Source of the DNA: Desulfobacteraceae bacterium
GTDB taxonomy: Bacteria > Desulfobacterota > Desulfobacteria > Desulfobacterales > SURF-7
DNA length: 64,000 nt
Assembly: GCA_003599865.1 (NCBI GenBank)
Contig: QZKS01000050.1
Location: 1-64,000, forward strand
Direction: 5' to 3'
Part shown: positions 2,823 through 37,826 of the stretch, in pieces
Layout of the letters: each line of letters starts with the position of its first letter
Numbering within the stretch: position 1 is the first letter of the stretch
Program-made: the position numbers and the translations under genes
The notes under the pieces: model-generated
The model's input: the letters and a program-made list of their open reading frames with translations, nothing else
What the model was told of the DNA's origin: nothing
Database searches by the model: none

Positions 2823-3101
2823 GGAAATGGGCTCTCTCTCAGGAGACTTACGGGTCTTCTGGGAGGGTACCTTCTCACAAGGATCGGTGAGCTATCCAGT
2901 GTGGTCGTTCATAGCAATACAAAGGCCACTTAATCTGAACAATTAACGAATATGAAATAAAGATCGTAGTCGTGGTGATTACAGAATCTTATACAGAAAT
3001 TGTAGTTTAAGTAATTTCGAACACTAAAGTGTATCGTATTGTTTGAAGTTATAAAGAACACAATTCAGTGAAATGTGGGATAGATTAGCTTTACCGAGAA
3101 T

Positions 3102-4004
3102 TCAATTATGCTCCTTAAATTTAACTAAATTCTTCTTTAAAATCTGAAAGATATATTTTGTTGGTATAATTACTGTCAGTCCGGAGTTGGTTCCTATACT
3201 TAAACCTGTAGACCTAATAGCTGTCTTTGTGACCTTGTGTGCCACGCAGATCCCTATCACCGAGCAATCACTTGTAAGGTATACTGGGCCGCCACTGTTG
3301 CCTGGATTTACTTGAATATCTGCCAAATAAACATCAAACGACCTTGTATTTGGTTTAGACGAATTCTCATATGACGCCCATGGAGTAGCAATAAACCCGG
3401 AAGTCGTAACAAGAGATGATTCTTGGAGTGGATATCCAGATATGGCAATTGAAGTGCCATCTTTTGGTCTCTGGGTATTAAGAAGAAGAGGATTTCCTGA
3501 ATATTTTACTTCTCTACCCTTGGTAATGATTAGATTTTTTGACCAATCAATAAACTCCTTTGTGAAAGGGTTTGTTTTAAGCTTCAACAAGGCTATGTCA
3601 TGTTCGGCATCACTATCAATAACATCAAATTCTATCGATATGAATGTTCCAGACACTATGTTGTGGCGGGCATCTTCGAACGGTTGAATCGGAATATTAA
3701 TATACTCGACTTTCTTTTTTCCACTTATAGTATTGAGAACTTGATGCATCCCTTCTATTACGTGTAGTGCTGTAACAACGTGTCCATCATCGCTGACTAA
3801 AAATCCAGTTCCAGCAATATGTTTTATCTGATTTCCCCCCATTTTATTTTTCGTGTTTTTATCAAGGTAAGAAACCTTCACCATTAATTGGACAACTCCC
3901 TTTTTCACAATCTCAATTGATTCAGGCAGATCGGTACATTTGGCTTCTCCTCCTATGAGAATAGCACTTATTACCACTGTTATATATAAGAACAAATGCT
4001 TCAT
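3102..4004 (-). CDS. Secreted trypsin-like (S1, DegP-type fold) serine protease
   Basis: 300 residues. Residues 1-22 form a signal peptide (MKHLFLYITVVISAILIGGE), so the enzyme should be periplasmic or secreted. The three catalytic blocks are visible: His in VVTALHVIEGM, Asp in DAEHDIALLKL and Ser in VNPGNSGGPVYL. No PDZ domain follows, so it resembles the short trypsin-like proteases rather than full DegP/HtrA. The ATG at 4004 has a nearby AGGAGG-type site. It stands alone between two directional breaks and is flanked by the parent gene and its broken copy (1678-2298 and 4443-4664). The substrate is unknown; the catalytic assignment is strong. Confidence 0.85.
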   Translation of the reverse strand: MKHLFLYITVVISAILIGGEAKCTDLPESIEIVKKGVVQLMVKVSYLDKNTKNKMGGNQIKHIAGTGFLVSDDGHVVTALHVIEGMHQVLNTISGKKKVEYINIPIQPFEDARHNIVSGTFISIEFDVIDSDAEHDIALLKLKTNPFTKEFIDWSKNLIITKGREVKYSGNPLLLNTQRPKDGTSIAISGYPLQESSLVTTSGFIATPWASYENSSKPNTRSFDVYLADIQVNPGNSGGPVYLTSDCSVIGICVAHKVTKTAIRSTGLSIGTNSGLTVIIPTKYIFQILKKNLVKFKEHN

Positions 4005-4440
4005 CTTATTCCTCCTACCAAATATTAATAATAAATAGGCGTGTTGTAATCATTCTATTTTCCATACAAAATAAAAAATGTTTGAATATATAAGATTTTT
4101 TGTATTTCATAAAAACAGATTGTTAACAAGAAAAATATAGTCATTAACATGTTATCTTTTCATGCAATATACTGGACTTAAATAGGAATTTTATTGAAGT
4201 GATATCAAAAATAAGCATGGAAGGTCAATAATGCCAGTGCTTACATAACCTATTGGATTGAAGACATCAATTATTGCTATAAGAGCGTGACATAACCTAC
4301 AAGCCAGAATATCGATTCTTTGTAGCTTCAGGGCTTCAGAAAACTTGATAAGTCAACTTCAAATCACCCCTTAACATGAGCCTTCGCAGAGAACCAGTTT
4401 TCTTTCTTCACAGCAAACTTTCCCACTCTTCTCAGCAGAT
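4005..4440. other. AT-rich intergenic stretch without a recognisable gene
   Basis: The stretch separates the divergent protease gene from the broken gene copy at 4443. It is very AT-rich next to the protease start, which would suit a promoter for that gene, and I see no convincing reading frame, RNA gene or repeat. It may include degraded sequence belonging to the duplicated fragment. Confidence 0.4.
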
Positions 4441-13332: not shown

Positions 13333-15375
13333 ATGATGAAGCGGAACATTTTATTGCGCAACGTAATCGTATTTTTCACCATGATTCCGGTCTTCTGTTC
13401 TGCCGGAACCGCATTATCGAAAGATCGGAAACAGGCCGTACAACTGGATACGGTTGTTGTTACGGCTGAAAAAATCGATGAGGACTATCAAACCGGGGAT
13501 GTGGATACCAGCCAGTCCACCGCTCAGCACAGTATTATCAAACGGGAATATTTTGACGGAAAAATGCAGACCCTGCCTGACGTGATTGAAAAGGAAGCCG
13601 GTGTCCAGATTCGCCAGACCGGCGGACTGGGCAGCCTGTCTACGGTCTCGCTCCGGGGGTCCGGCAGCGATCAGGTCATGATCTATCTGGATGGGACCCT
13701 GTTGAATGACGCCTCCGGAGGCGGTGTGGATTTGAGCAACATCTCCTTATCCGATGTGGAATCCATTGAGATCTATCGGGGAACCACGCCGATCCACTTT
13801 AACAATGCCTCCATCGGCGGCGCCATCAACATCAAAACCCTGAAATCCGGCGACGGTCTTCACGGTCATCTGAAAGCAGGATACGGCTCCTTCCAGACAC
13901 GAGAACTTTCAGGTCTGGCGACCTATAAACCGGAAGAATGGGACACCCTGTTACTGGTCAACCATCTGGCCGGAAAAAATAACTATACCATTGAAAACAA
14001 AAATGGAACCCCTCTCAATCCGAATGATGACCGAAAAGAGAAAAGAAACAACGCCGAATTCAGCCAGTACAATGTTCTGGCAAAATTCGGATACGATCTG
14101 ACCACAGACAACCGGATCGACATTGTCAACCAGGGGTTCTTAAAAGATCAAAATCTTCCGGCCTGGAATAACAGCGCCACCGCAGATGCCTCGCTCGACA
14201 CCAGACGAAATATCACTTCGGCAAAACTGACGCTCAATGATATCGGCGCCCTTCACCTGAACACCGCCACGGAATTTTCCTATCTGTATAAAGATGAGGA
14301 CTATCAGGATCGACATGGCAGTATCGGCCTCGGCAATCAGCATTTTGAGTATATCACAAGGCGCTATGGCGGCCAGTCCTATATAGAGTGGCCGACGGAT
14401 CATCACACCGCCATTCTGACCTTTGATCTGTACCAGGAAGCATATGACCCGGAAGACCTGCTCTCCGAAACCAACCTGAACAGCAGCACCCGAAACAGTT
14501 TTGGAATCGGCTTTCAGGACAACCTGATGCTGTTGACGGACAGGCTGATCATCAGCCCGGCCATCCGATATGTCTATATTGATGATGAACTGCAAAGCGG
14601 AACAGACCTGTATGGAGACCCCATGGAAGGTATTTCCCGGCAGGAAGGATACTGGAGCCCGCAAATCGGATTCAAATTCCAGCCGTCAGACTGGATTGCC
14701 CTGAAAAGCAACCTCAACAAATACTATCGGACACCATCCTTTTTCGAACTTTTTGGGGATCGGGGTTTTTTTATGGGCAATTCCGAACTAAAACCGGAAA
14801 CTGGGGTCAACTTTGACGCCGGTGTCGAGGCCGGCAAAACAATACAGAACCGTCTGCTCAATGGTTTTTCAACGGAAATCGTTTATTTTCAGAGCCATGT
14901 CGATGATCTGATCACACGGGTATACGATGCAAGAGGCATTGGAAAATCCGTAAATATATCCGGTGCCGCCATTCAGGGCATGGAGGTTACCGGAAAAATA
15001 AAGCTGTTTGAATATTTCCAATTGATCGGAAACGCCACGATACAGGATGCGGAAAATCAAAGCCGGATCAAGGGATTTGACGGCAAAAAACTTCCCGGAA
15101 TCTTTTCAAAACAATATCTGGGAAGGATGGAAACCAGCTACCGGAACGCGAAGCTTTTTGTGGAATACGTCGCCAATAAGGACATGTACTATGATGCGGC
15201 CAATCTCCTCAAGGCAAAAGACCAGGCATACGTGAATACCGGGATTTCCTGGCTGATTCAGGATTTTCTCATCAGCGTCGAAGCAAAAAACATCACGGAT
15301 AACCAGTATGAAGATTACAACGGCTACCCCATGCCCGGCGTGTCCTATTTCGGAAGTGTGAAATATACGTTTTAA
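13333..15375 (+). CDS. btuB: TonB-dependent corrinoid receptor (BtuB-type)
   Basis: 680 residues from ATG 13333 (site ACAGGA). A signal peptide of about 25 residues is followed by a TonB box (LDTVVVTA, residues 38-45), a plug domain (about 60-180: MQTLPDVIEKEAGVQIRQTG, VSLRGSGSDQVMIYLDG, SIEIYRGTTP, GGAINIKT) and a beta barrel to the terminal Phe of SVKYTF. These are hallmarks of TonB-dependent outer-membrane receptors. The riboswitch directly upstream and BtuFCD downstream identify the substrate as a corrinoid. It opens an operon that ends with its own TonB. A hairpin follows the gene before the propeller gene and may lower downstream expression. Confidence 0.92.
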   Translation: MMKRNILLRNVIVFFTMIPVFCSAGTALSKDRKQAVQLDTVVVTAEKIDEDYQTGDVDTSQSTAQHSIIKREYFDGKMQTLPDVIEKEAGVQIRQTGGLGSLSTVSLRGSGSDQVMIYLDGTLLNDASGGGVDLSNISLSDVESIEIYRGTTPIHFNNASIGGAINIKTLKSGDGLHGHLKAGYGSFQTRELSGLATYKPEEWDTLLLVNHLAGKNNYTIENKNGTPLNPNDDRKEKRNNAEFSQYNVLAKFGYDLTTDNRIDIVNQGFLKDQNLPAWNNSATADASLDTRRNITSAKLTLNDIGALHLNTATEFSYLYKDEDYQDRHGSIGLGNQHFEYITRRYGGQSYIEWPTDHHTAILTFDLYQEAYDPEDLLSETNLNSSTRNSFGIGFQDNLMLLTDRLIISPAIRYVYIDDELQSGTDLYGDPMEGISRQEGYWSPQIGFKFQPSDWIALKSNLNKYYRTPSFFELFGDRGFFMGNSELKPETGVNFDAGVEAGKTIQNRLLNGFSTEIVYFQSHVDDLITRVYDARGIGKSVNISGAAIQGMEVTGKIKLFEYFQLIGNATIQDAENQSRIKGFDGKKLPGIFSKQYLGRMETSYRNAKLFVEYVANKDMYYDAANLLKAKDQAYVNTGISWLIQDFLISVEAKNITDNQYEDYNGYPMPGVSYFGSVKYTF

Positions 15376-15437: not shown

Positions 15438-16745
15438 ATGAAAGCAAATTGGTGGAAAGCAACAAGGATGTTTTTTGGTTCTGTAGTTTTTGTAACGATT
15501 GCAGCACCATCACTGATTATATCGGCCTTCCCCGGACAGGCGGCTGCCGCCCAAACCGCCGTGGTGGTATCGGCAGCCGGTGATTATTCCAGCGGCGCCC
15601 ATTCCATTGTTTCTGTGGAACCAGTCGGCGGACCAAGAACCATTACGCAGGATCTGGTTCCTTCCGGTTCCGACATGACGGTTGTCGCCTACGGGGATCA
15701 CTTTTACCGGATGGAAAGAAGCAATGCCAACAATATTACCAAATTCCATATTGACCAGCCGGATACGCCGGTATGGCAATATTCCACCGAAGGCAGTGAA
15801 ACCGGAAGCAATCCGCATGATTTGGTTTTTGCCGGTGAATCAAAAGCATACCTCCTTCGATTCGGATCATCAACCATATGGATTGTCAATCCCGGGGCAG
15901 CCAATGAAGCAGACTTCAAAATCGGTGAAATCGATTTGGGCATTTATGCGGACGGAGACGGAAAGCCGGAAATGCACAGCGGTGTGATCCTCAACGGATT
16001 TTTGTATGTTTCCCTGCAGCGGGTTGATTTTTCCGGAGGCTGGGGAAACTATGTCTACAATACCCCATGGATTGCGGTCTTCCGGACAGCGGACGATACG
16101 GAAGTGGAAACCGGACAAGGGGATGGAACACGAAAGGGCATTCCGCTGCCCATGGAAAATCCCGGAGCGATCCAGTATCTGGCTTCCAACAACACCATTT
16201 ATGTTCAGGGCATCGGACAATATACAAACCAATACACCAGCGGCATTGCAACCATCAACCCAACTACTTATGAACCAACCCTGATCCTGGATGACGGCGA
16301 CGAGAACAACCACCCATACGGCGCCATTACGGGAATGGCGATCGTTTCTCCCACCAAAGGATATTTTGTCGGCTATGCCGCATGGGGCGACAACACGCTT
16401 TACGCATTTGATCCTTCCGATCCGAATCCGGCAGGAACGCCCGTACCCGGCCTTGCGAATCTGGGCATCGGCGGCATGGAAACCGGGACCTACACGGACG
16501 AAAACAATATGCTGTGGATTTGCACATCCACATATGATTCCGCCACATGGTCGCTGATCGACCCGAAAATCATTATCCTGAACACGGAAACCGATACGGT
16601 AGATGAGACCATCGAAACCAACCTGACGCCATTGCGGGTGGTGTTCACCGGTCAAAACCAAGCAGTACCCACCGCATCCGAATCAAACGATGACGACGAC
16701 AGCACCTGTTTTATCCAATCGGCCTTCAAAGGATTCACCAAATGA
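15438..16745 (+). CDS. Exported beta-propeller-like protein of the corrinoid operon (possible BtuG analogue)
   Basis: 435 residues with a Sec signal (about 1-37, ending AAAAQT) and a CAAGGAG-type ribosome site. The body shows at least five similar blade-like units, each with a small-hydrophobic strand, an aromatic turn and a strand ending in a Y/I-x-[VI]-[FN] pattern: PHDLVFAGESKAYLLRFGSS, MHSGVILNGFLYVSLQ, AIQYLASNNTIYVQGI, ITGMAIVSPTKGYFVGY and MLWICTSTYDSATWSLIDP. The C-terminus is an acidic linker followed by CFIQSAFKGF. It lies between btuB and btuF and overlaps the latter by four bases. In Bacteroides, BtuG is a surface beta-propeller that captures B12 on BtuB. The propeller fold and an equivalent role are inference; no lipobox is visible. 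Confidence 0.7.
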   Translation: MKANWWKATRMFFGSVVFVTIAAPSLIISAFPGQAAAAQTAVVVSAAGDYSSGAHSIVSVEPVGGPRTITQDLVPSGSDMTVVAYGDHFYRMERSNANNITKFHIDQPDTPVWQYSTEGSETGSNPHDLVFAGESKAYLLRFGSSTIWIVNPGAANEADFKIGEIDLGIYADGDGKPEMHSGVILNGFLYVSLQRVDFSGGWGNYVYNTPWIAVFRTADDTEVETGQGDGTRKGIPLPMENPGAIQYLASNNTIYVQGIGQYTNQYTSGIATINPTTYEPTLILDDGDENNHPYGAITGMAIVSPTKGYFVGYAAWGDNTLYAFDPSDPNPAGTPVPGLANLGIGGMETGTYTDENNMLWICTSTYDSATWSLIDPKIIILNTETDTVDETIETNLTPLRVVFTGQNQAVPTASESNDDDDSTCFIQSAFKGFTK

Positions 16746-18769
16746 AAAAAAACCGCACTGCCGGAATATTCTTCATCCTCCTGATTCTCCGGTTCTGCTT
16801 CTCCAATGACGCCTGCGCCCTTCCGGTGCAGGTTTCGGATGCGAATGGGCAAATCATCACCATCCAAAAGCCACCGGCCCGGGTGGTCTGCCTGGTTCCT
16901 TCGGTTACGGAAATTCTTTTTCACATCGGTGCCGGTAACGCAGTTTCCGGCATAACCTACCATGACAAAATTCCTCCGCGAACCTTGTCCAAACCGATTG
17001 TCGGTGGCTATTTTAATCCTTCCGTCCGTGCCATTGAAACTCTCCGGCCGGATATGATTATTCTTTCCGATATCCACACAAACGTAAGAGAACGGTTTTC
17101 CGGTTCAACCTGTGTACTGATCGAAATGAAAACCACCTCCCTGTCCGACAGCCTTGCGGATATCATGCTGCTGGGGAGGCTGTTTGACCGGGAAACCCGG
17201 GCAGAGGAACTCGTCACGGAGATCCGGCAGGAGCTGGAACAGATCTCCCTGAAAGTCGCCAAAATTCCGCAAGAAAACAGAAAGCGGGTGATCCGTTTGA
17301 TGGGACGAAATGAGGTGATGACGCCGGGAACCGACTCCTTTCAGAACGAGATGATTCGGGCTGCCGGTGGAATCACCCATGATTTCCATAAAAATGGAGA
17401 GGTCATTTCCGTTACAAAAGACGAATGGATGCGGTTCAATCCCCAGGTGATCTATGGGTGCGGCGGAGACAGGAAAACAGCCGAATTGTTTTTCACCCGG
17501 CCCGGCTGGAAGGATGTGGATGCTGTTAAAAATAATCGGATTTATTATTTCCCGTGCGACCTGACATGCCGGGCGGCAACCTATACCGGCTATTTTGTCT
17601 CATGGCTGGCTGCCAACATTTACGGGGATTTCTTTTCCCGAAAAGACAATCTTGTCCAAAAAGAGGAAACAATTGTCTCCCGATGGATTCAAATTGACCT
17701 GGACTACCTTAACAATGTCCGCATTCTCCAGAGCCGCATTTATGATTTTTTCCATAAAACCCTGGTCATTGATTTTAAAAAGCCCCTTTCCATCGTGTCT
17801 ACGCTGGAAGGGGAAAGGGCCGGTATCCGGACCGTGGGAAACCACTTCTCCCCGCCTCAGTACTGGGCGGCCACAGGACATATGGATGGACTGGAAGGAC
17901 ACCGGAAACGAATCTACAGTGCACTCGGCCGGGATGAAAAAAACACCAGCTTCCTCTTTACCGGCGCGGATATGGACAATCTTTCCCTACAACAGGAAAC
18001 ATTTAAAGAGATGACGGTTCACGCGCTGGTCACGGCAGGCGTGGAAGGTAATGCCATGCGTATGGCCAGGGATGAGGGGCTCTTTTATGAACCCGGAACC
18101 ATCAACATCATCATCATGACCAATATGCGCCTGACAGCCCGCGCCATGACCCGGGCGATCATCACGGCCACCGAAGCCAAAACCGCTGCTCTGCTGGACA
18201 TGGATATCCGGAGCAGCTATGCTTCCGGAGCTTACCGGGCAACCGGCACCGGAACGGACAACGTCATGGTTGTGGAAGGAACCGGTATTCAAATTGACAA
18301 TGCCGGCGGCCACACAAAACTGGGGGAGCTGATCGCCCGGGCGGTGTATGCCGGTGTTCAGGAAGCTGTTGATAAACAAAACCGGATGAGCGCCAAACGG
18401 AACATCTTTCAACGGCTCAAGGAACGTGATATAAGCGTGTACGGTCTGATCGGAACGGAAACATGCGACTGCGGCCGCGACCGGAACGATTTTTCCGGTG
18501 CGGTTGAGGAACTGCTTCTCGACCCGCAATATGCCGGTTTTATGGAATCCGCACTGGCATTGAGCGATGACCATGACAAAGGACTGATCACGGATTTGAC
18601 GTTATTCCGACAATGGGGACAGCTCATTGCAGAACAAATCGCAGGCCGGGAGATTCAGGAAGTCAAAAACTTGACCATGCAGGAGAACCTGTCACCTGTA
18701 ATGAAAATCGCATTCGATTCGCTGCTGACCGGCATTTATTATCGGGAACAGGAAGTACAAGCGGAATGA
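16742..18769 (+). CDS. Exported fusion of corrinoid-binding protein (BtuF) and adenosylcobinamide amidohydrolase (CbiZ)
   Basis: 675 residues. A Sec signal (about 1-26) leads into a BtuF-like binding fold at about 40-305: PARVVCLVPSVTEILFHIGA, GGYFNPSVRAIETLRPDMII, and GWKDVDAVKNNRIYYFP. A CbiZ domain follows at about 330-560: LVTAGVEGNAMRMARDEG, INIIIMTNMRLTARAMTRAI, TEAKTAALLDMDIRSSYASG, ATGTGTDNVMVVEGTG and AGGHTKLGELIARAVYAGV. About 110 residues at the end are unassigned. CbiZ cleaves the amide bond between the corrin ring side chain and the aminopropanol/nucleotide loop, giving cobyrate. CbiZ is normally cytoplasmic; the signal peptide places this one outside the membrane, joined to the receptor that feeds BtuCD. 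It overlaps both neighbours by four bases. Confidence 0.88.
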   Translation: MKKNRTAGIFFILLILRFCFSNDACALPVQVSDANGQIITIQKPPARVVCLVPSVTEILFHIGAGNAVSGITYHDKIPPRTLSKPIVGGYFNPSVRAIETLRPDMIILSDIHTNVRERFSGSTCVLIEMKTTSLSDSLADIMLLGRLFDRETRAEELVTEIRQELEQISLKVAKIPQENRKRVIRLMGRNEVMTPGTDSFQNEMIRAAGGITHDFHKNGEVISVTKDEWMRFNPQVIYGCGGDRKTAELFFTRPGWKDVDAVKNNRIYYFPCDLTCRAATYTGYFVSWLAANIYGDFFSRKDNLVQKEETIVSRWIQIDLDYLNNVRILQSRIYDFFHKTLVIDFKKPLSIVSTLEGERAGIRTVGNHFSPPQYWAATGHMDGLEGHRKRIYSALGRDEKNTSFLFTGADMDNLSLQQETFKEMTVHALVTAGVEGNAMRMARDEGLFYEPGTINIIIMTNMRLTARAMTRAIITATEAKTAALLDMDIRSSYASGAYRATGTGTDNVMVVEGTGIQIDNAGGHTKLGELIARAVYAGVQEAVDKQNRMSAKRNIFQRLKERDISVYGLIGTETCDCGRDRNDFSGAVEELLLDPQYAGFMESALALSDDHDKGLITDLTLFRQWGQLIAEQIAGREIQEVKNLTMQENLSPVMKIAFDSLLTGIYYREQEVQAE

Positions 18770-19620
18770 AACAGGTCACGCAAACCCTCATACTCTTATG
18801 CAGCCTGCTGCCGGCTGTTGTCCTGGGGAAACCCCTTTCCCCTCCGCAACGGATTGTCTCTTTGGGTCCCATCATCACGGAAATGATTTATCTGATTGGG
18901 GCGGATCAGCAGCTGATTGCCAATACCAGCTACTGCATCAAGCCGGATGACGCAGCGAACAAGGAAAAAATCGGGTCCATGATCCAGATGAATGTTGAAA
19001 AAATCATCAGCCTGAAACCGGATCTTGTACTGGCAAGCCCGCTTTCCAAAGAAAAGCAGCTTGAAATGCTGAAAAATTTAGGGGTGCACGTACAGCGCAT
19101 TGACAATCCCAAAACCTTTTCCGACATGTGCCGCATGACCATGACCATGGGTGAGCTTCTGGGTAAGGTGGAAAATGCCCGGATGGTTGTTGAACGTGCC
19201 CAAAAAGAGGTGGATGCGGTTTTGGCCGTAACCCGGAACCTGCCGAAAAAAAGGGTGTTCATGCAGATCGGCGTCAAACCGCTGCACTCGGCAACCCAAG
19301 ACACCTTTCTCAATGAATATATCGAGTATGCAGGGGGGATCAATATCACCTCCCGGGAAAAGACCGGCGTATACAGCCGGGAAAAAGTATTGCAGGAAAA
19401 CCCGGATGTGATTCTCATTACCACCATGGGATCATCCGAGTCCGCCGGAGAGCACGAAAAGGAAATATGGATGCGGTATCCAACCCTGAAAGCCGCAAGA
19501 AATCAGGAAATTCACATCCTGGACTCCTATCTGGTCTGCAGTCCTACTGCCGGAACATTTGCAAAAGGTCTTCAGGAAATTGCCAAAATACTGCATCCTG
19601 AAATCGACGGTTTACCATGA
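18766..19620 (+). CDS. btuF: Periplasmic corrinoid-binding protein (second BtuF)
   Basis: 284 residues starting at the ATG that overlaps the previous stop by four bases. A signal peptide of about 21 residues (LLCSLLPAVVLG) is followed by a helical-backbone binding fold: PQRIVSLGPIITEMIYLIGA, EKIISLKPDLVLA, RIDNPKTFSDMCR and AGGINITSREKTGVYSREKV. It has the single-domain length of BtuF and no CbiZ part. It delivers corrinoid to BtuC. The presence of two binding proteins for one permease suggests that they differ in corrinoid preference, for example intact cobamides against cleaved products. Confidence 0.85.
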   Translation: MKQVTQTLILLCSLLPAVVLGKPLSPPQRIVSLGPIITEMIYLIGADQQLIANTSYCIKPDDAANKEKIGSMIQMNVEKIISLKPDLVLASPLSKEKQLEMLKNLGVHVQRIDNPKTFSDMCRMTMTMGELLGKVENARMVVERAQKEVDAVLAVTRNLPKKRVFMQIGVKPLHSATQDTFLNEYIEYAGGINITSREKTGVYSREKVLQENPDVILITTMGSSESAGEHEKEIWMRYPTLKAARNQEIHILDSYLVCSPTAGTFAKGLQEIAKILHPEIDGLP

Positions 19621-20627
19621 AAAACGGAAAACGGAAAAACTGGTTTTCAATGCTGCTGATCCTGGTCATCCTTTTGCTCCTTTCGTGTATTTTCGCTCTT
19701 TGTACCGGCAGTGCCGGAATCCCCATCCGGAATATACCGGAAATCCTGATCAACGGAAGCGGCACCGTGGAGCACAGTATTCTTTTCCATATCCGGCTTC
19801 CGAGACTGATGCTGGCCCTTTCCATCGGAGGGGCATTGAGTCTTGCCGGCGTCATTCTCCAGGGAATGTTCCGGAACCCTCTTGTAGAGCCATATACACT
19901 CGGTATTTCCGGCGGTGCGTCCCTGGGAGTATGCCTGAACATCCTGTTCAAATGGTATGCACTGATCGGTGTTATCGCCTACCCGCTTTCCGGTTTTCTG
20001 GGAGCCATTCTGGTGATCGTGATTGTCTACAGCATCAGCATGAAAAAGGGAGATCTGAAAACCAACAGTATGCTTCTCATCGGTGTCATGATCAGTTTTG
20101 TTTCCTCTTCGCTGGTCATGCTTCTCATGGCAATCTCCCATAGCGAGGATCTTCAAAGCATTATTTTCTGGATCATGGGTTCTCTGGACGAACCCAACAT
20201 GATACTGGTCAAAATGGCCGTCGCAGGCTCCATTACCGGGCTCCTTCTCTCCTACTGTTTCTGCCTGGACCTGAATGCCCTTGCTCTGGGGGAGGAGGAA
20301 GCGATTCATCTCGGCGTGCAAACGGAACGGTCCAAGCGGTATCTGTTTATCATCGCATCCATCCTGACCGGTCTGAGCGTATCCGTGGCCGGCATCATCA
20401 TGTTTGTGGGATTGATTGTTCCTCATTTCATGCGGATGACCGTGGGGTCGGACCACCGGATACTCCTGATCGGTTCCTTTCTGGCCGGGGCATCCTTCCT
20501 GACGGTCTGTGATGTCATCTCCCGCACCATTGTCGCCCCTTTGGAGCTGCCTGTGGGGGTCATCACCGGTATCATCGGCGGTGTTGTATTCATTTATGTT
20601 CTCAGCCGCAGGCAGGTTTCATTATGA
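19617..20627 (+). CDS. btuC: ABC transporter permease BtuC
   Basis: 336 residues with about nine to ten hydrophobic helices, in the FecCD/BtuC family. Signatures are RLPRLMLALSIGGALSLAGV, QGMFRNPLVEPYTLGISGGA, and AGIIMFVGLIVPHFMRMTVG, the cytoplasmic coupling loop that contacts BtuD. It forms a dimeric channel for corrinoids across the inner membrane. The start overlaps the previous stop by four bases and its own end overlaps btuD by four, so expression is translationally coupled. Confidence 0.93.
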   Translation: MKNGKRKNWFSMLLILVILLLLSCIFALCTGSAGIPIRNIPEILINGSGTVEHSILFHIRLPRLMLALSIGGALSLAGVILQGMFRNPLVEPYTLGISGGASLGVCLNILFKWYALIGVIAYPLSGFLGAILVIVIVYSISMKKGDLKTNSMLLIGVMISFVSSSLVMLLMAISHSEDLQSIIFWIMGSLDEPNMILVKMAVAGSITGLLLSYCFCLDLNALALGEEEAIHLGVQTERSKRYLFIIASILTGLSVSVAGIIMFVGLIVPHFMRMTVGSDHRILLIGSFLAGASFLTVCDVISRTIVAPLELPVGVITGIIGGVVFIYVLSRRQVSL

Positions 20628-21439
20628 CGGAAACCATCCTTGAAATACAAAACCTGTCCTGCGGATATGGTGAAAAAACCATTCTCCGTGATATCAGCCT
20701 GAACGTCATTACCGGTGAAATTCTCAGCATTATCGGTCCCAACGGATCCGGCAAGACCACCCTGCTTAAATCCGTTACCCATATTATCCAACCGGCAAAA
20801 GGAAAAATCCTGTTTCAGGGAAAAGAAATTCAATCCATTCCCCGGAATGAATTTGCCAGGAAAGTGGCGGTTGTCGGGCAGGCTGTTGAGCCGGCCAGGA
20901 TGACCGTAAAAGAATATGTTCTGCTCGGCAGGCTGCCCTATTTCCGGAGATACCAGTTTATGGAAACCGGAAATGACAGGCGCCTGGCACAACACTATAT
21001 GGAACTGACCCATACCGATTCATTACAAAATCAATTGATGACGGAGATCAGCGGCGGTGAAAGACAACTGGCCTCCATTGCCCGTGCCCTTGTCCAGGAG
21101 CCGACGCTTCTGCTCCTGGATGAGCCGACGTCACACCTGGATATCACCCATCAGGCCCAGATCCTCAGTCTGATTCGCCGCTTGAATCAGGATTTGCGGC
21201 TTACGGTGCTGATGGTCGTTCATGATCTCAATCTGGCCAGTGAGTATTCCGACAGGCTGATTCTCCTGAATAAACAAAACGGCCGGATCTACCGGACCGG
21301 AACACCCGAAGAAGTACTCACGGAACCGGCGATCCGGGAGATCTATAACACACCGGTACTGATTGAAAAAAATCCCCTGTCGGGAAAACCCTGTATCTTT
21401 CTTTCACCGGAAAATTGCCATAAAAGGGAGTTGATATGA
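20624..21439 (+). CDS. btuD: ABC transporter ATPase BtuD
   Basis: 271 residues with all nucleotide-binding motifs: Walker A GPNGSGKTT, Q-loop region VVGQAVEP, signature ISGGERQLASIARAL, Walker B LLLLDEPTSHLDI and the switch His in VVHDLNLASEY. It powers BtuC. The N-terminal LEIQNLSCGYGEKTILRDIS is typical for siderophore/B12 importers. Four-base overlaps on both sides keep it in the operon. Confidence 0.93.
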   Translation: MTETILEIQNLSCGYGEKTILRDISLNVITGEILSIIGPNGSGKTTLLKSVTHIIQPAKGKILFQGKEIQSIPRNEFARKVAVVGQAVEPARMTVKEYVLLGRLPYFRRYQFMETGNDRRLAQHYMELTHTDSLQNQLMTEISGGERQLASIARALVQEPTLLLLDEPTSHLDITHQAQILSLIRRLNQDLRLTVLMVVHDLNLASEYSDRLILLNKQNGRIYRTGTPEEVLTEPAIREIYNTPVLIEKNPLSGKPCIFLSPENCHKRELI

Positions 21440-22065
21440 TTGAATTTTTTAACAACGGCGGCCCCGTGATGTATCCGCTTCTTGCCTGTTCCATCATCAC
21501 CTTGACCGTGATAATTGAACGGACCATTTTCTGGATCAAGGTCGGCATGCATTATCATCAGGGTATCATTGATGAAATTTTGACCCTGAGCCAGACAGCT
21601 GACTGGGGGGCCATTCGGGAAAAAACCGCCGGATCGAAAAACTATATTGTCCGGACACTGATCAGCGGCATCCTCCACCGGGATTACTCGATGATTAAAG
21701 CCATGGAATCCGCCGCTTCGGATGAAATCCGTAAAATGAAAACGTATATGGGGATACTGGATACCATGATCACCGTAGCGCCTTTGCTGGGAATTTTTGG
21801 AACGGTGATCGGCATCATCGCGTCTTTTGATATGCTCGGAGCAGGCATTGATCACCCGGAAGCGGTAACCGGGGGTATTGCCCAGGCGCTGATTACGACA
21901 GCCGCCGGTCTCGGGATTGCAATTCTCACGGTATTTCCTTATAATTACTTTACATTAAAAACAGAACAGGCGGCCCTTCTGATTGAAAAATATGCAACCA
22001 GCCTTGAGATTGTATACGAAAAACTGGGCCGTGAATCGGAAAAACAGAGGGGCGCAAACAGATGA
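21436..22065 (+). CDS. exbB: ExbB-type proton channel subunit
   Basis: 209 residues of the MotA/TolQ/ExbB family with three hydrophobic helices. Residues 10-30 form the first; LDTMITVAPLLGIFGTVIGI is the conserved second helix; GGIAQALITTAAGLGIAILT is the third. With ExbD it forms the proton-driven motor that energises TonB. Being the seventh gene of this operon, it is dedicated to corrinoid uptake rather than shared. Overlaps exbD by four bases. Confidence 0.92.
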   Translation: MIEFFNNGGPVMYPLLACSIITLTVIIERTIFWIKVGMHYHQGIIDEILTLSQTADWGAIREKTAGSKNYIVRTLISGILHRDYSMIKAMESAASDEIRKMKTYMGILDTMITVAPLLGIFGTVIGIIASFDMLGAGIDHPEAVTGGIAQALITTAAGLGIAILTVFPYNYFTLKTEQAALLIEKYATSLEIVYEKLGRESEKQRGANR

Positions 22066-22469
22066 AACTCAACCTGCAAACCGGCAAAAAAGTTCGCATT
22101 GAGATGCTTCCCCTGATCGATATTGTTTTTCTCCTGCTGGTGTTTTTCATCTATGCCATGCTTTCCATGGCCGTGCACCGCGGCCTTTCCATCAACCTTC
22201 CCTCATCTTCGGCCGCTGAAATTGAAAAAAAACTGGTATTGTCCGTAACCGTAACCGCAGACGGTTCCGTCTGGATTGACAAAACCAGGATTCCCCTGGA
22301 AAACCTGGCACAACAGTTACGAAAACAGGCAAAGGGACATATCGACCCCGGTGTTCTTCTTTTTGCGGACCGCTCCCTTTCCTACCAGAAACTGTTTCAG
22401 GTGCTCGACAGAATTCAGCAGGCAGGGTTTGAAAAGATCTCTCTCCAGGCAGAGGCAGAGAGCCGATGA
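22062..22469 (+). CDS. exbD: ExbD-type motor subunit
   Basis: 135 residues. After about 20 cytoplasmic residues comes one membrane helix, MLPLIDIVFLLLVFFIYAML, with the essential Asp of PLIDIVF that carries protons. The periplasmic part (VLLFADRSLSYQKLFQVLDR) has the ExbD/TolR fold. It pairs with the ExbB encoded just before it. Confidence 0.92.
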   Translation: MKLNLQTGKKVRIEMLPLIDIVFLLLVFFIYAMLSMAVHRGLSINLPSSSAAEIEKKLVLSVTVTADGSVWIDKTRIPLENLAQQLRKQAKGHIDPGVLLFADRSLSYQKLFQVLDRIQQAGFEKISLQAEAESR

Positions 22470-23113
22470 GCCGGCTTATCTTTGCCGCCGTCTTGTCTTT
22501 TCTGCTGCATGGTCTGCTGTTCACCATTTCTGTTGACCGGCTCCAGGAAAAGCAGAGGATCAGACCCGGAACCCGAACCGTTGCTGTGGCGCTGTCTTAT
22601 AAAAAGCCGGACAACACGCCTGTCGCACCAAAAACCCATCCGATTCAACAACCGCCCCCGGCAAAACCAAAGCAGAAAACCCCGAAACCGCGAGCGGTGG
22701 AAAAAACCGTATTGACGCCCATTCCACCGGAGCCGGAAGCCGAACCGGAAGAATCCTTGTCCCAAGAAGATGAACAGCCGGTCCGGGAAGCTCTATCGGA
22801 CGATTCACCGGGCAAGGATGTCTCGACAGCCCATATGCGGAAAGAAGCAACCCCGCTCTATAAAGACAACCCCCCGCCGGCCTATCCCAGGGTTGCGCGT
22901 CGAAGAGGTCATCAGGGGATTGTCATTCTGGAGGTCCTGGTCAGCCGGGAAGGAAAAGTAAAGGATCTGGCAGTGTATCAATCCAGCGGTTATGCGTCAT
23001 TGGATGATGCGGCAAAATCGTCCGTATGGCACTGGCTCTTTGTGCCCGGCATGCAGGGAGATCAGCCGGTGGAAATGTGGGTCAAACTTCCGGTACGGTT
23101 TCAGCTGAAATAA
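22466..23113 (+). CDS. tonB: TonB energy transducer
   Basis: 215 residues. One N-terminal membrane helix (LIFAAVLSFLLHGLLFTI) is followed by a proline- and lysine-rich spacer (residues about 45-105: PPPAKPKQKTPKPR and PIPPEPEAEPEE) and a C-terminal TonB domain: PPPAYPRVARRRGHQGIVIL, SSGYASLDDAAKSSVWHW and the final VKLPVRFQLK. It should reach across the periplasm and open the BtuB receptor. It ends the operon and converges, five bases apart, on the thioesterase gene. Confidence 0.92.
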   Translation: MSRLIFAAVLSFLLHGLLFTISVDRLQEKQRIRPGTRTVAVALSYKKPDNTPVAPKTHPIQQPPPAKPKQKTPKPRAVEKTVLTPIPPEPEAEPEESLSQEDEQPVREALSDDSPGKDVSTAHMRKEATPLYKDNPPPAYPRVARRRGHQGIVILEVLVSREGKVKDLAVYQSSGYASLDDAAKSSVWHWLFVPGMQGDQPVEMWVKLPVRFQLK

Positions 23114-31249: not shown

Positions 31250-32482
31250 ATGAAACCTCGGAACCATCATATCGAATTACTGGCACCTGCCGGCAATTTT
31301 GAAAAACTTGAAATTGCAATACACTATGGGGCGGATGCCGTATATCTTGCCGGTAAGGAATTTTCATTACGCAATTTTTCAGGAAACTTTACCCTGGATG
31401 AAATGGAAAAAGCGATTGCCTTCTCCCGCAAGGCCAATGTCAAGGTGTATGTGGCCTGTAATATTTATGCCCGAAACCAGGATCAAAAAGGGATTGACCA
31501 ATATCTGAAAAATCTCGGCAGACTCAATCCGGACGCCTTGATTTTCGCTGATCCGGGCGTATACCTGTCCGCCGGGAGGTTGATTCCCGATATTCCGCTT
31601 CATTTGAGCACCCAGGCAAATACAACAAATTATCAAGCGGTTAAATTCTGGGAAGCACTCGGTGTAAAGCGGGTCAATGTTGCCAGAGAGCTGTCTCTTG
31701 CGGAGATTGAAGAGATCTCCCGGCAAACATCCGCAGAAATCGAAGCCTTTGTCCACGGAGCCATGTGCATCTCCTATTCCGGCAGGTGTCTTCTCAGTTC
31801 CTTTCTGACCAAGAGGGACAGCAATCAGGGAATGTGCAGCCATCCCTGCCGCTGGAGCTATTCGGTAGTGGAGGAATTGAGGCCCGGAGAATATATGCCC
31901 ATTGCGGAAGATGACAGGGGTTCCTATATTTTCAACTCAAAAGATCTCTGCATGATCGAACATATCCCTTCGATGATACAGGCCGGAATCACTTCCCTTA
32001 AAATTGAAGGCCGCATGAAAACCATCAATTACCTTGCGTCTGCCGTCAAGGTATATCGGGAAGCCATCGACAGCTATTGTTCCGACCCGGAGAACTACCA
32101 TGTGAAGCCGGAATGGATGGAACAGCTTGTTGCCGTGAGCCATCGGGATTATTGTACCGGTTTTTATTTTCATGATCCGGATCAGGTGATTCCCGGTTAC
32201 AACGATTCCAATCCGATCCCGGGCCACCTGTTTATGGGAAAAATTCTGGAAGATACCACACAAGGCCTTACATTGACCCAGGTACGAAATAAAATCTTTT
32301 TAAAAGACTCCGTTGAAATTCTGACCGGTCAAGGTCCGCTTCAATGGGATGAAATTCAGGAAATTATCGATCTCTCCGGGGAAACAGTCGGTTTTTCTCA
32401 GCCGGGGTCCATCGTGAAGATACGACTTACAAATAGCTATCAAAAAAATGACCTGATCAGAAAAACGGGAAAAGAATCATGA
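31250..32482 (+). CDS. Peptidase U32 family protein (TrhP/YegQ-like tRNA hydroxylation type)
   Basis: 410 residues. IELLAPAGNFEKLEIAIHYG and GADAVYLAGKEFSLRNFSGN open the U32 TIM barrel. The family signature EAFVHGAMCISYSGRCLLSS with the later cysteines GMCSHPCRW is intact; these cysteines bind an iron-sulfur cluster in characterised members. U32 proteins such as TrhP and RlhA hydroxylate RNA bases using prephenate-derived chemistry, and UbiU/V act in anaerobic ubiquinone synthesis. The length and C-terminal domain (GHLFMGKILE ... GQPLQW-like) favour TrhP. It overlaps cobO by four bases although no functional link with cobamides is known. Confidence 0.8.
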   Translation: MKPRNHHIELLAPAGNFEKLEIAIHYGADAVYLAGKEFSLRNFSGNFTLDEMEKAIAFSRKANVKVYVACNIYARNQDQKGIDQYLKNLGRLNPDALIFADPGVYLSAGRLIPDIPLHLSTQANTTNYQAVKFWEALGVKRVNVARELSLAEIEEISRQTSAEIEAFVHGAMCISYSGRCLLSSFLTKRDSNQGMCSHPCRWSYSVVEELRPGEYMPIAEDDRGSYIFNSKDLCMIEHIPSMIQAGITSLKIEGRMKTINYLASAVKVYREAIDSYCSDPENYHVKPEWMEQLVAVSHRDYCTGFYFHDPDQVIPGYNDSNPIPGHLFMGKILEDTTQGLTLTQVRNKIFLKDSVEILTGQGPLQWDEIQEIIDLSGETVGFSQPGSIVKIRLTNSYQKNDLIRKTGKES

Positions 32483-32994
32483 AGGGATACATTCAGGTTT
32501 ATACCGGGAATGGAAAGGGAAAAACAACCTGCGCCATCGGGCTTTCCGTCCGGGCAGCAGGTGCAGGCCTTAGGGTTTTCATCGCCCAGTTCATCAAGTC
32601 CGGCGATTACAGTGAAGTCAAAGCCCTGAAAAGATTTTCCGACCTCATCACACTGAAACAGTTCGGCACCGGACGGTTTATCAAAGGAAAACCTTCTGCC
32701 GAAGATATCCGGTCTGCACAGGAAGGACTCAGAATGATCCGTCAGGAGATATCATCCGGCCAATATGATATGATTGTTCTGGAAGAAGCAAATGTCGCCG
32801 TAACCTGTGGTATCATCCGGTTGGAAGATCTTCTGGATATCATGGCACACAAACCGGATAACCTGGAACTGGTAATCACCGGCCGCAATGCAGATCCGAA
32901 AATTATTGAAAAAGCCGATCTGGTCACCGAAATGAAAGAAATCAAGCATTACTATAACAACGGGGTTCAAGCCAGAATTGGAATCGAAAAATAA
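32479..32994 (+). CDS. cobO: Cob(I)yrinic acid a,c-diamide adenosyltransferase
   Basis: 171 residues. GYIQVYTGNGKGKTTCAIGL is the CobO/BtuR P-loop; FIAQFIKSGDYSEVKAL, MIVLEEANVAVTCGII and NLELVITGRNADPKIIEKAD complete the family pattern. It attaches the 5'-deoxyadenosyl group to Co(I) corrinoids and can act on scavenged cobyrate or cobinamide. Start overlaps the U32 stop by four bases; its end overlaps cobQ by 17 bases. Confidence 0.92.
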   Translation: MKGYIQVYTGNGKGKTTCAIGLSVRAAGAGLRVFIAQFIKSGDYSEVKALKRFSDLITLKQFGTGRFIKGKPSAEDIRSAQEGLRMIRQEISSGQYDMIVLEEANVAVTCGIIRLEDLLDIMAHKPDNLELVITGRNADPKIIEKADLVTEMKEIKHYYNNGVQARIGIEK

Positions 32995-34474
32995 CAACCG
33001 CGCCAAAACGCTTGCCGTATTCGGGACCGGATCGGATGTGGGAAAAAGTATTATCACGGCCGCTCTCTGCCGTTTCCTTTGGGAACAGAAAATAAAGGTC
33101 GCTCCCTTTAAAGCACAGAACATGTCCAACAACTCGGGCGTGACGCCGGAAGGCCTGGAAATGGGCCGGGCCCAGATCGTTCAGGCCGAAGCCTCCGGGA
33201 TTCCGCCGCATGTGGACATGAATCCGATTCTGCTGAAACCCACAAGCGAAGTCGGCTCCCAGGTGATCCTCCTGGGAAAACCCCTGGAAAACCATACGGC
33301 TGCCGAATATCACCGAAAAAAGAACCACCTGTTTGCATCTGCCTGCGCAGCCCTTGACCGGCTGCGGTCCACCCATGAGGTGATTGTCCTGGAAGGAGCC
33401 GGATCATGCGCAGAAATCAACCTGATGGAGAACGATATCGTAAACTTTAACATGGCTGAATATTCGGACGCTCCTGTGATCCTGGTTGCCGATATTCATC
33501 GGGGCGGTGTTTTTGCCCAGATCGTCGGCACCCTTGCATGCCTTCCCCAAAAGGAAAAAGATCGGATTGCCGGGGTGATCATCAACCGGTTTCGGGGCGA
33601 TATCTCTCTTTTTGGCGACGGCATACAATGGCTGGAAAATAAAACCGGAAAACCCATTCTAGGCGTTCTGCCTTGGTATGATCATATCCGGATTGAAGAA
33701 GAAGATTCGGTTGTTCTCGAGAAGCTGACTGCGTCACCTGACCGATCCCAAGGCACTTTGATGATCGCGGTTATCCGGCTTCCGCACATTTCCAATTTTA
33801 CGGACTTCCATCCCCTGACCGACCTGAAAGGCGCCTCACTTCAATTTATGGATAAACCAGCAGACCTGTCATTGTTCGGGGCGGTGATCCTGCCCGGCTC
33901 CAAAAACACCCGATCCGATCTGCACTGGCTGCAACAGACAGGATGGGCGGATCAGATCATCCGATATGCCGATAGGGGCGGTCATCTCCTTGGAATTTGC
34001 GGCGGATATCAGATGCTGGGACAGATGGTTCATGATCCGGACGGACTGGAAGGATCTTCCGGGTCCGGCAGAGGGCTTGGCCTGCTGCCGGTTGAAACCA
34101 CGCTGTCCGCCCCGAAAATAACGACACTGACATCATTTTCCTGGGACGGTCAGACCGGGAACGGTTATGAAATCCACATGGGAAAAACCATCCGGCACGG
34201 CGCCGAAGCGTTGTTTCAGGTGCACTCCCGGAACCGGGTACCGTGCAATCATGATGAAGGATGTGTCGGGAAAAATGCACGGATTATGGGAACCTATATC
34301 CATGGCCTTTTTGAACCACCGGAAATCACCCGAAAGTGGCTGGAAACAATCGGATATGGCCACATCCCTGTAGACCGTGAGGGCGGTCTTGCTGCAAGAG
34401 AAAAGGAATATAAACTGTTGTCAAAACATTTTCAGACCCATATTAATACGCAGTTGATTATGGATCTTATTTGA
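32978..34474 (+). CDS. cobQ: Cobyric acid synthase
   Basis: 498 residues starting with TTG inside the end of cobO. The N-terminal synthetase part has the P-loop FGTGSDVGKSIITAALCRFL and APFKAQNMSNNSGVTPEGLE; the C-terminal glutaminase has Cys in LLGICGGYQMLG and His in GTYIHGLFEPPE. It amidates the b, d, e and g side chains of adenosylcobyrinic diamide to cobyric acid. Because no corrin-ring genes are here, it may serve imported early intermediates, or ring synthesis lies elsewhere. Confidence 0.93.
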   Translation: MESKNNNRAKTLAVFGTGSDVGKSIITAALCRFLWEQKIKVAPFKAQNMSNNSGVTPEGLEMGRAQIVQAEASGIPPHVDMNPILLKPTSEVGSQVILLGKPLENHTAAEYHRKKNHLFASACAALDRLRSTHEVIVLEGAGSCAEINLMENDIVNFNMAEYSDAPVILVADIHRGGVFAQIVGTLACLPQKEKDRIAGVIINRFRGDISLFGDGIQWLENKTGKPILGVLPWYDHIRIEEEDSVVLEKLTASPDRSQGTLMIAVIRLPHISNFTDFHPLTDLKGASLQFMDKPADLSLFGAVILPGSKNTRSDLHWLQQTGWADQIIRYADRGGHLLGICGGYQMLGQMVHDPDGLEGSSGSGRGLGLLPVETTLSAPKITTLTSFSWDGQTGNGYEIHMGKTIRHGAEALFQVHSRNRVPCNHDEGCVGKNARIMGTYIHGLFEPPEITRKWLETIGYGHIPVDREGGLAAREKEYKLLSKHFQTHINTQLIMDLI

Positions 34475-34505
34475 ATACGGGATCTGCAAAAAAGGATTGA
34501 CCGGT

Positions 34506-35027
34506 ATGACGGAAAAAATTTTGGTGATCGGGGGATGCCGCAGCGGAAAAAGCAGCCATGCACTCTCGCTGGCGGAACAGATTCCGGGAGAGAAACGATT
34601 TATTGCCACCTGTATCCCGTTTGATGAGGAAATGAAAGAAAGGGTTTCCCATCACCAACAAGATAGAAGCCCTGACTGGATAACGATTGAGGCGCCCATA
34701 GACCTGCCCGGAGCGATTTTGAAACATTCGGCATTATCCGGGGTGGTCCTGGCAGATTGCCTGACGCTCTGGATCAGCAACCTTCTCATGAACAACATCA
34801 GCGGGCAGGAACTGGTTCCGGAGATCAACCGGCTTACCCATGCGATTCATCATGCGGCAAGTACCGTCATCCTGGTTTCCAATGAAGTAGGCACGGGAAT
34901 TGTTCCGGAAAACGCGCTGGCGCGCCTGTTCAGAGACGCCGCCGGACTGACCAATCAACGGGTGGCTTCGGCTGTGAACAAGGTAGTCTGGATGGTTGCC
35001 GGCATACCGGTTGTCATCAAAGGATAG
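34506..35027 (+). CDS. cobU: Adenosylcobinamide kinase / guanylyltransferase
   Basis: 173 residues from ATG 34506 with an AAAGGA site. P-loop ILVIGGCRSGKSSHALSLAE, guanylylation region FIATCIPFDEEMKERVSHHQ, and VILVSNEVGTGIVPENALAR followed by the AAGLTNQRVA tail. It phosphorylates adenosylcobinamide and converts it to GDP-cobinamide, the salvage entry point for cobinamide. Sits between cobQ and cobS, ten bases before cobS. Confidence 0.93.
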   Translation: MTEKILVIGGCRSGKSSHALSLAEQIPGEKRFIATCIPFDEEMKERVSHHQQDRSPDWITIEAPIDLPGAILKHSALSGVVLADCLTLWISNLLMNNISGQELVPEINRLTHAIHHAASTVILVSNEVGTGIVPENALARLFRDAAGLTNQRVASAVNKVVWMVAGIPVVIKG

Positions 35028-35036
35028 AACAGATCC

Positions 35037-35762
35037 ATGAAGCCATTGATTTCCGCAATCCAGTTTTTAACGATTCTTCCCATCGGGAAAAAAGGAACCT
35101 TTGTCCCGGACAGGATGCTGCCCTTTTTTCCGATTGTCGGCCTCCTGATCGGTCTGCTCCTGTGCATGTTTGATCTGTTTGCCAAACAGTTCTGGCCGCT
35201 CCCCGCTGTTGCGGTGCTGGATACGGTCTTTCTGATTATCATTACCGGAGCTCTTCATCTGGACGGCATTTGCGATACGGCAGATGGTTTATATGGAGGT
35301 GCGGGCGATCCTAATAGATCTCTTCACATTATGAAGGACAGCAGTGCAGGGGCCATCGGAGTGGTTGCCGTGATTTGCGTATTTGCCGTAAAATCAGCTG
35401 GCATTTTCAGCATGGATGACCATCGCATGCTTCTGCTGCTGATCGTTCCGGCATATGCCCGGGGAGCGACCCTGTTTGGATTTGCATGGCTGCCCTACGG
35501 AAGACCCGAAGGCGGAACCGGCCATGATTTTTTTCATAAAAAAATCACCGTTTCCACATTCGGGGGGCTGTTGATTCCTTTTTTTCTTTCTTTTTTTCTG
35601 GGGTGGGGATGGCTTGTTTTCAACATCTGTTTTCTTGCGGGTGTTGCCGCCATCTTGTTTTTTTATCAAAAACGCCTGGGATGCATCACCGGAGACATGC
35701 TTGGCGCAATGACCGAAGCCATAGAGGCATTCCTGTTTTTAATCGGTGCCATACACCTGTAA
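35037..35762 (+). CDS. cobS: Adenosylcobinamide-GDP ribazoletransferase
   Basis: 241 residues, an integral membrane protein with about six helices. PLISAIQFLTILPIGKKG opens the family; LHLDGICDTADGLYGGAGDP and RSLHIMKDSSAGAIGVVA carry its conserved Asp and His residues. It joins GDP-cobinamide with alpha-ribazole in the inner membrane, finishing cobamide assembly. Confidence 0.93.
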   Translation: MKPLISAIQFLTILPIGKKGTFVPDRMLPFFPIVGLLIGLLLCMFDLFAKQFWPLPAVAVLDTVFLIIITGALHLDGICDTADGLYGGAGDPNRSLHIMKDSSAGAIGVVAVICVFAVKSAGIFSMDDHRMLLLLIVPAYARGATLFGFAWLPYGRPEGGTGHDFFHKKITVSTFGGLLIPFFLSFFLGWGWLVFNICFLAGVAAILFFYQKRLGCITGDMLGAMTEAIEAFLFLIGAIHL

Positions 35763-35778
35763 TGCGCGGAGAAATGAT

Positions 35779-36861: not shown

Positions 36862-37826
36862 CTGATTTTCTATGTATTTGGATTCTTCCGGCGGCATTTG
36901 CCCTGGACCTGATTCTGGGGGACCCGGCATTTCTTCCCCATCCCATAAGGTGGATGGGAAGTGCAATTGCCTATTGGGAGCCGCGGTTCCGGACCCTGCC
37001 GGTGAATGCAGGAGTATCGGGGTCGCTCTTTTCAATTTTTCTCATTCTCTCCACGTTCTTTATCTGTTTCCTTCTGGTTGCCTTGTTCCGTTGGATGGAT
37101 CCGGTTCTCGGATTTCTGGTGGAAACCATTCTGGTTTACTATTGTATCTCAGCCGGATCCCTGAAAGACGCCGCCATGGAAGTATATCAGGCGCTTCACA
37201 GGAGGGATCTTGAAACGGCAAGATCCAAACTTTCCATGATTGTCGGAAGGGACGTCACCAACCTGGATCAACAGGGAATTACCCGGGCGGCAGTGGAAAC
37301 CGTTGCGGAAAACCTGGTGGACGGGGTACTCTCCCCTTTATTCTTTGCGGCAATCGGAGGAGCACCCCTGGCCATGGCCTATAAAATGGTCAACACCCTG
37401 GATTCCATGATCGGATATAAAAATGAGAAATACATCGATTTCGGAAAAACGTCCGCCCGAATCGATGATGTCGGTAACTTTATTCCTGCCCGTGCATCCG
37501 TACCCCTCATTGCCGCTTCCTCACAAATGCTATGGAAACAAGGCAGATCCGCCTTCCGGACGGCTGTACGGGAAGGACGAAACCACACCAGCCCCAATGC
37601 CGGATATCCCGAGGCGGCTTTTGCCGGCTCTTTTCAGATCAAACTGGGCGGGCCCAACATCTACCATGGAAAGTTGGTTTCAAAACCTTACATTGGAACA
37701 AATTTCGGGCAGACAAACCCTGATCATATCCAAAAGGCATGCCGGCTGATGATGGTTTCATCCTGTGTCGGTCTTCTGATCTTCTGGCTGATCGGCATTT
37801 CCATACGATATTGCGGTTCAATATGA
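36858..37826 (+). CDS. cbiB: Adenosylcobinamide-phosphate synthase
   Basis: 322 residues, membrane protein. ALDLILGDPAFLPHPIRWMG is the family signature, followed by TNLDQQGITRAAVETVAENL, VDGVLSPLFFAAIGGAPLAM and KMVNTLDSMIGYKNEKYIDF. It couples cobyric acid with aminopropanol phosphate. This step repairs the product of CbiZ (cobyrate), linking the amidohydrolase in the uptake operon to this cluster. Four-base overlap with the next gene. Confidence 0.93.
   Translation: MTDFLCIWILPAAFALDLILGDPAFLPHPIRWMGSAIAYWEPRFRTLPVNAGVSGSLFSIFLILSTFFICFLLVALFRWMDPVLGFLVETILVYYCISAGSLKDAAMEVYQALHRRDLETARSKLSMIVGRDVTNLDQQGITRAAVETVAENLVDGVLSPLFFAAIGGAPLAMAYKMVNTLDSMIGYKNEKYIDFGKTSARIDDVGNFIPARASVPLIAASSQMLWKQGRSAFRTAVREGRNHTSPNAGYPEAAFAGSFQIKLGGPNIYHGKLVSKPYIGTNFGQTNPDHIQKACRLMMVSSCVGLLIFWLIGISIRYCGSI

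Follow-up and report, generated by a model that had tools for sequence, protein, structure and literature searches.

Where does a corrinoid amidohydrolase act when it is encoded behind both a signal peptide and a BtuF-type binding domain? The question is raised by a gene at positions 16742–18769 (forward strand) of a 64,000-nucleotide stretch of DNA from a Desulfobacteraceae bacterium (assembly GCA_003599865.1, contig QZKS01000050.1, positions 1 to 64,000), referred to here as the window. The sequence comparisons described below make it probable, in our view, that the product is exported, binds scavenged corrinoids and, as an amidohydrolase, trims them before their passage across the inner membrane, coupled to their import.

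The gene is a single open frame of 675 amino acids with no stop inside. Its N-terminus, MKKNRTAGIFFILLILRFCFSNDACA followed by LPV, reads by inspection as a cleavable signal peptide (residues 1–26, 16742–16819), with predicted cleavage between ACA and LPV. It is followed by a BtuF-type binding domain (residues 48–271, 16883–17554; Pfam PF01497 Peripla_BP_2, E=3.3e-23) whose fold matches BtuF and haem-binding proteins, by a CbiZ domain (residues 345–539, 17774–18358; Pfam PF01955, E=1.9e-54) and by a degenerate CobZ-like tail (residues 546–675, 18377–18766), all on the forward strand. The CbiZ match scores 185 bits against a curated cut-off of 27 and covers profile positions 2–191 of 191. These matches bear out the first-pass annotation, which had placed a CbiZ domain behind a signal peptide and a corrinoid-binding domain. 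A confident AlphaFold model of the entire fusion has a predicted local distance difference test (pLDDT) score of 87.8 and a predicted template modelling (pTM) score of 0.85 and is weak mainly at the loop 436–451; a fold search with this model listed matches only for the binding-protein half. The BtuF part combines the Peripla_BP_2 domain and the leader of a class III substrate-binding protein, and we infer from the operon and its riboswitch that its ligand is a corrinoid. The fusion is the sole CbiZ in the host genome.

The domain search that the first-pass annotation had proposed was run on 395 sampled genomes of Desulfobacterota. CbiZ is present in 81 of these, and 53 of the 81 encode the BtuF–CbiZ fusion; 51 were called by an open-frame length of at least 600, and the other 2, truncated by the end of a contig or by the frame, were recognised from BtuF and CbiZ matches. 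The fusion is likewise encoded at all of the best 80 loci in named genomes (80/80), and its carriers include Desulfosarcina alkanivorans, D. widdelii, Desulfonema magnum, Desulfospira joergensenii and Desulfogranum marinum. Identity is 71% in three further genomes of the genus and about 37–53% across the phylum, and an alignment of 43 fusion sequences shows three parts common to all. Because the identical architecture recurs in genus and phylum, the fusion is not a chance product; the BtuF–CbiZ architecture is confirmed as real and is widespread in Desulfobacterota. The first-pass annotation also knew of no described example. Our literature search found no description of an exported CbiZ or a BtuF–CbiZ protein, though two key CbiZ papers lay outside it and a prior mention is possible; the arrangement is, however, far from unique. 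Some loci carry two fusions near each other (1–1773 and 7968–9989 in L110; 4248–6284 and 10997–13012 in L050). Two other loci come from metagenome-assembled genomes titled Nitrospirae (L164) and Bacteroidales (L126), either of which may be misbinned.

The homologues indicate where the CbiZ part resides. A hydropathy script found a strongly hydrophobic, signal-like leader in 110 of the 110 homologues with a usable start, 5 of them with a lipobox, and no clear second membrane segment inside these fusions: the internal 19-residue hydropathy mean reached a maximum of 1.74 and was at least 1.6 in only 4 proteins. In three proteins (L166, L123 and L114) the fusion continues into the partner BtuF, which leaves CbiZ flanked by a BtuF domain on either side; beyond the leader these proteins show no membrane segment, and the leader itself is incomplete in L114, truncated at its 5′ end. 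A clade of stand-alone CbiZ proteins (L037, L177, L179 and L180) also bears signal peptides by inspection; a fifth member, L055, lacks a clear leader in the frame examined, and L181, a stand-alone CbiZ with a leader in a corrinoid-transport locus, was left out of the tree. Genes for the leadered stand-alone forms adjoin btuB-type genes and mostly also btuF-, btuC- or btuD-type genes. In the CbiZ tree the fused forms group together (99/98), as do the stand-alone exported forms (100/99), and both lie apart from the 16 leaderless CbiZ (100/96). The leaderless sequences are those sampled from the phylum, characterised enzymes not included. Support for joining these exported groups to each other is weak (88/54), from a bootstrap that had not settled completely. 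Together, the leaders, the triple fusions and the leadered stand-alone CbiZ proteins place the CbiZ part of the fusion almost certainly outside the inner membrane, as had been supposed at first pass. Two loci (L163 7593–9914 and L088 6680–9001) encode DUF2149 and a hydrophobic segment fused ahead of BtuF–CbiZ, apparently a membrane-tethered variant.

The gene order at the locus is cobalamin riboswitch, btuB, a BtuG-like gene, the btuF/cbiZ fusion, btuF, btuC, btuD, exbB, an exbD-like gene and tonB. Trimming could be coupled to import as follows. Low B12 would relieve the riboswitch, as expected of its RNA family, and BtuB with TonB, judging from the operon, would bring corrinoids into the periplasm. 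There the N-terminal BtuF domain would capture them, and the attached CbiZ domain, with its DmpA/NylC/ArgJ-type fold and conserved core, would cut the amide bond to the aminopropanol arm, yielding cobyrate. The partner BtuF would hand the product to BtuCD, as its conservation suggests, and CobA, CbiB, CobU, CobS and CobT, all encoded by the host, could turn this back into a cobamide that bears the lower ligand preferred by the cell.

This division of labour can be compared with the docking surfaces of the two binding proteins. Two glutamates of BtuF dock to BtuC (PMC3741162), and we located their positions via E. coli BtuF and checked them against the PDB. Partner-type BtuF proteins carry the docking glutamates in 40/41 and 40/41 cases, whereas the fusions do so in 26/113 and 69/113, and the fusion of the window has Arg and Asp at the two positions. 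The triple fusions show this split within one chain: both glutamates are present in the C-terminal BtuF, and the N-terminal BtuF lacks the pair. The fusion thus shares the Peripla_BP_2 domain and fold of the periplasmic cobalamin-binding protein BtuF, but it carries CbiZ and mostly does not retain the docking glutamates. Since the partner does retain them, capture and cutting are probably the task of the fusion, and delivery that of the partner. The first-pass annotation had assigned uncut corrinoids to a second BtuF without CbiZ. That protein exists, but a purely separate route is probably wrong: since the btuC at 19617 is the only convincing BtuC-type permease in the host genome and the partner retains the docking glutamates, the partner more likely delivers both the product of the fusion and uncut corrinoids.

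The rebuilding of cobyrate proceeds via CbiB in known pathways. By its gene content the host is a corrinoid salvager without ring synthesis; CbiC and CbiD were searched for in its genome and are absent. Its corrinoid genes lie on the forward strand of the window: cobA adenosyltransferase (32479–32994, NCBIfam), cobU kinase/guanylyltransferase (34497–35027, NCBIfam, over the cut-off), cobS (35037–35762, NCBIfam, below the cut-off), a cobD threonine-phosphate decarboxylase-like gene (35746–36861; TIGR01140, 272 bits against 291) and cbiB, whose product uses cobyrate (36858–37826; Pfam E=8.6e-105, TIGR00380 over the cut-off). CobT was found near these genes. A cobyric acid synthase gene (CbiP/CobQ, 32978–34474) is also kept despite the missing ring synthesis. 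The CbiB at 36858, to which the first-pass annotation assigned the rebuilding of the cut product, is therefore real and could fill that role. CbiB strongly tracks the fusion, being present in 51/53 fusion genomes against 199/342 others. Among genomes without CbiC it occurs in 16/17 with the fusion and in 44/180 without it (p=1.5e-8, species not independent), an excess that would be expected if the fusion supplies cobyrate.

The host also encodes a strong match to the cobamide-remodelling phosphodiesterase CbiR (37739–38644, forward strand; NF041277, 259 bits against a cut-off of 105). Its frame overlaps the end of cbiB, and the match begins at residue 43; the true start is probably downstream. 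CbiR, described from Akkermansia, likewise initiates cobamide remodelling but belongs to an unrelated family and cleaves the phosphoribosyl bond (PMC7733943). With such an enzyme adjoining cbiB, the fusion might trim only cobinamide or damaged corrinoids, still in the periplasm, and leave complete cobamides of the host to cytoplasmic CbiR. We consider this unlikely, although it survives best of the alternatives. The host already has CobU, which salvages cobinamide in known systems. Moreover, CbiR occurs in 66 genomes, only 2 of which also carry the fusion (2/53 fusion genomes, the host being an exception), and most fusion genomes would be left without a known route for remodelling complete cobamides unless the fusion provided it. 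This distribution suggests that CbiR and the fusion are usually alternatives.

Whether the exported CbiZ domain could still cut was judged from its core and predicted fold. At 31 positions conservation is at least 90% both in fused CbiZ and in other CbiZ, and the fusion shares the core of other family members. No sequence similarity of CbiZ to solved structures was found in our searches. Compared with the PDB, the CbiZ model has the fold of DmpA, NylC, BapA, ThnT and ornithine acetyltransferase (ArgJ), with Z of 12–14.4, while the next fold, an unrelated one, reaches 9.3. We take CbiZ to have a predicted DmpA/ArgJ-type N-terminal nucleophile (Ntn) amidase fold (S58/P1 type), which alone shows no function, and the likeness to these amidases comes without significant sequence similarity. 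Proteins of this type mostly cleave amide bonds with a Ser or Thr nucleophile released through self-cleavage. CbiZ contains an invariant threonine (75/75 aligned sequences), which in the fusion is Thr453 (codon 18098–18100, forward strand), within Gly452-Thr453-Ile454-Asn455 and directly after the poorly modelled loop. Six of eight profile alignments matched it to the nucleophile of S58 and ArgJ, at scores close to those of reversed controls; the hhalign comparisons with S58 and ArgJ were non-significant, and leaderless CbiZ alone did not place the threonine on the nucleophile. Thr453 is thus a candidate nucleophile, a lead rather than proof.

On their own, tails of the fusions (residues 546–675 in the window) gave no relevant Pfam or NCBIfam match, but the tail is homologous to the PgpA/CobZ-like C-terminal domain of L063 (P=4e-9), and the fusion matches NF038002, the model for CbiS, over residues 340–620, which reaches into the tail. 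CbiS, the bifunctional CbiZ–CobZ enzyme of Methanopyrus kandleri, likewise has CbiZ followed by a CobZ-related part. The fusion differs from it in scoring 85 bits against a cut-off of 250, in a tail that by inspection lacks the DE, KP and DD motifs of L063 and in the added BtuF domain and leader. In our reading the tail descends from the CobZ domain of an ancestor resembling CbiS and has since decayed. A CobZ/PgpA phosphatase activity of the tail was considered and rejected: L063 does establish the homology, but the motifs are lost. L063 itself (2866–4041) is a CbiZ without a clear leader that bears the PgpA/CobZ-like domain and groups in the tree with the exported forms; it may picture the ancestor of the fusion or an intermediate. 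The leaderless CbiZ proteins of the phylum (L002, L071, L075 and similar, about 390 amino acids) end in a conserved domain of 140–150 amino acids without a Pfam name, possibly a distant relative of the fusion tail.

The decay of the tail shows that domains of the fusion can degenerate, and together with the poorly modelled loop ahead of Thr453 it leaves room for an exported CbiZ domain that no longer cuts and serves as a second corrinoid-binding module, raising affinity or storing periplasmic corrinoids. This we regard as slightly less likely still than trimming limited to cobinamide, given that the conserved core, Thr453 included, is retained in fused and other forms and that CbiB tracks the fusion in genomes that do not make the ring. 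That the CbiZ half is cytoplasmic, either because the leader is unused or because a membrane anchor leaves CbiZ on the inner side, would agree with the general treatment of described CbiZ systems but is very improbable in the face of homologues with no clear second membrane segment, three proteins with CbiZ flanked by BtuF domains, lipobox forms and leadered stand-alone CbiZ.

Several observations weigh against trimming in the periplasm before import. CbiZ is named for the adenosyl ligand of its substrate, which corrinoids in the periplasm may not carry, and signal peptides were called with a basic hydropathy script plus visual inspection. Relatedness among the species compared for CbiB makes the p-value too small, and 36 of the 53 fusion genomes make the corrin ring themselves and need CbiB regardless. 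Among 63 loci with enough flank, any btuB, btuF, btuC or exbB gene lies nearby in only 49, and our own search placed a partner BtuF within 4.5 kb in only 19. The partner model may therefore fail at some loci.

In the window, the operon is headed by a cobalamin riboswitch (RF00174, 13041–13224; Rfam 112.7 bits, E=2e-27), and all 17 of the related loci scanned besides the window have one on the operon strand; in L136, L139 and L165 it lies within a few hundred bases or less 5′ of the fusion itself. All features of the operon are on the forward strand. The btuB-type TonB-dependent receptor (13333–15375) has Pfam Plug and barrel matches and a TIGR01779 TonB-B12 match below the cut-off; its open reading frame was listed from TTG 13288, with ATG 13333 the likely start. 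From 15438 onward neighbouring genes overlap by 4 bases according to their coordinates, and ATGA overlaps can be read directly in the sequence on both sides of the fusion. The partner BtuF (18766–19620, Pfam PF01497) probably starts at ATG 18766, which overlaps the stop codon of the fusion. It is followed by btuC permease (19617–20627, Pfam FecCD, E=6.4e-91), btuD ATPase (20624–21439, Pfam ABC_tran), an exbB-like proton channel (21436–22065, Pfam MotA_ExbB), an exbD-like frame of 135 amino acids assigned by inspection (22062–22469) and tonB (22466–23113, Pfam TonB_C). The secreted BtuG-like protein between btuB and the fusion (15438–16745) is probably a beta-propeller. It has no Pfam or NCBIfam match; its family profile weakly matches Bacteroides BtuG-type surface-layer propeller structures (E 0.05–0.4), and the family occupies the same place in some relatives (L091 6396–7769, L109 5822–7882, L161 3256–4617). 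Its C-termini carry either a short Cys-Phe-Ile motif (STCFIQSAF, STCFIDTAVFG) or a hydrophobic segment that ends in basic residues, which looks like a swap between two types of anchor. CbiR, the riboswitch, the degenerate tail and the triple fusions were all absent from the first-pass annotation.

Among the closest characterised proteins are the CbiZ amidohydrolases of Methanosarcina mazei and Rhodobacter sphaeroides, which act on adenosylcobinamide and pseudocobalamin; the fusion shares their Pfam family at high score and the tie to corrinoid transport genes. It differs in being exported behind a BtuF domain and in belonging to a clade of its own, distinct from that of the leaderless CbiZ proteins that were sampled within the phylum. 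The R. sphaeroides enzyme cleaves pseudocobalamin and not cobalamin (PMC7733943).

For periplasmic trimming by the fusion we offer a more specific version only tentatively, as a real possibility that falls a little short of an even chance: a secreted CbiZ amidase, cleaving itself between Gly452 and Thr453 and covalently tied to its own binding protein, would remodel corrinoids in the periplasm apart from the finished cofactor, so that only the stripped ring reaches BtuCD, in a widespread and apparently undescribed system. Known remodelling enzymes are thought to share a compartment with the finished cobamide and to spare it through selectivity. A cutter outside could not destroy the cell's own finished cobamide and would need less selectivity than a cytoplasmic CbiZ. 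The exported CbiZ would then solve the problem of self-damage by location, which predicts a wider substrate range, and the fold offers a concrete candidate catalytic residue for the entire CbiZ family. If this is true, the lower ligand of environmental cobamides would be removed before the inner membrane is crossed, with consequences for which members of anoxic communities can use which form of B12, and genome surveys that count every CbiZ as cytoplasmic remodelling would misplace the step in much of Desulfobacterota.

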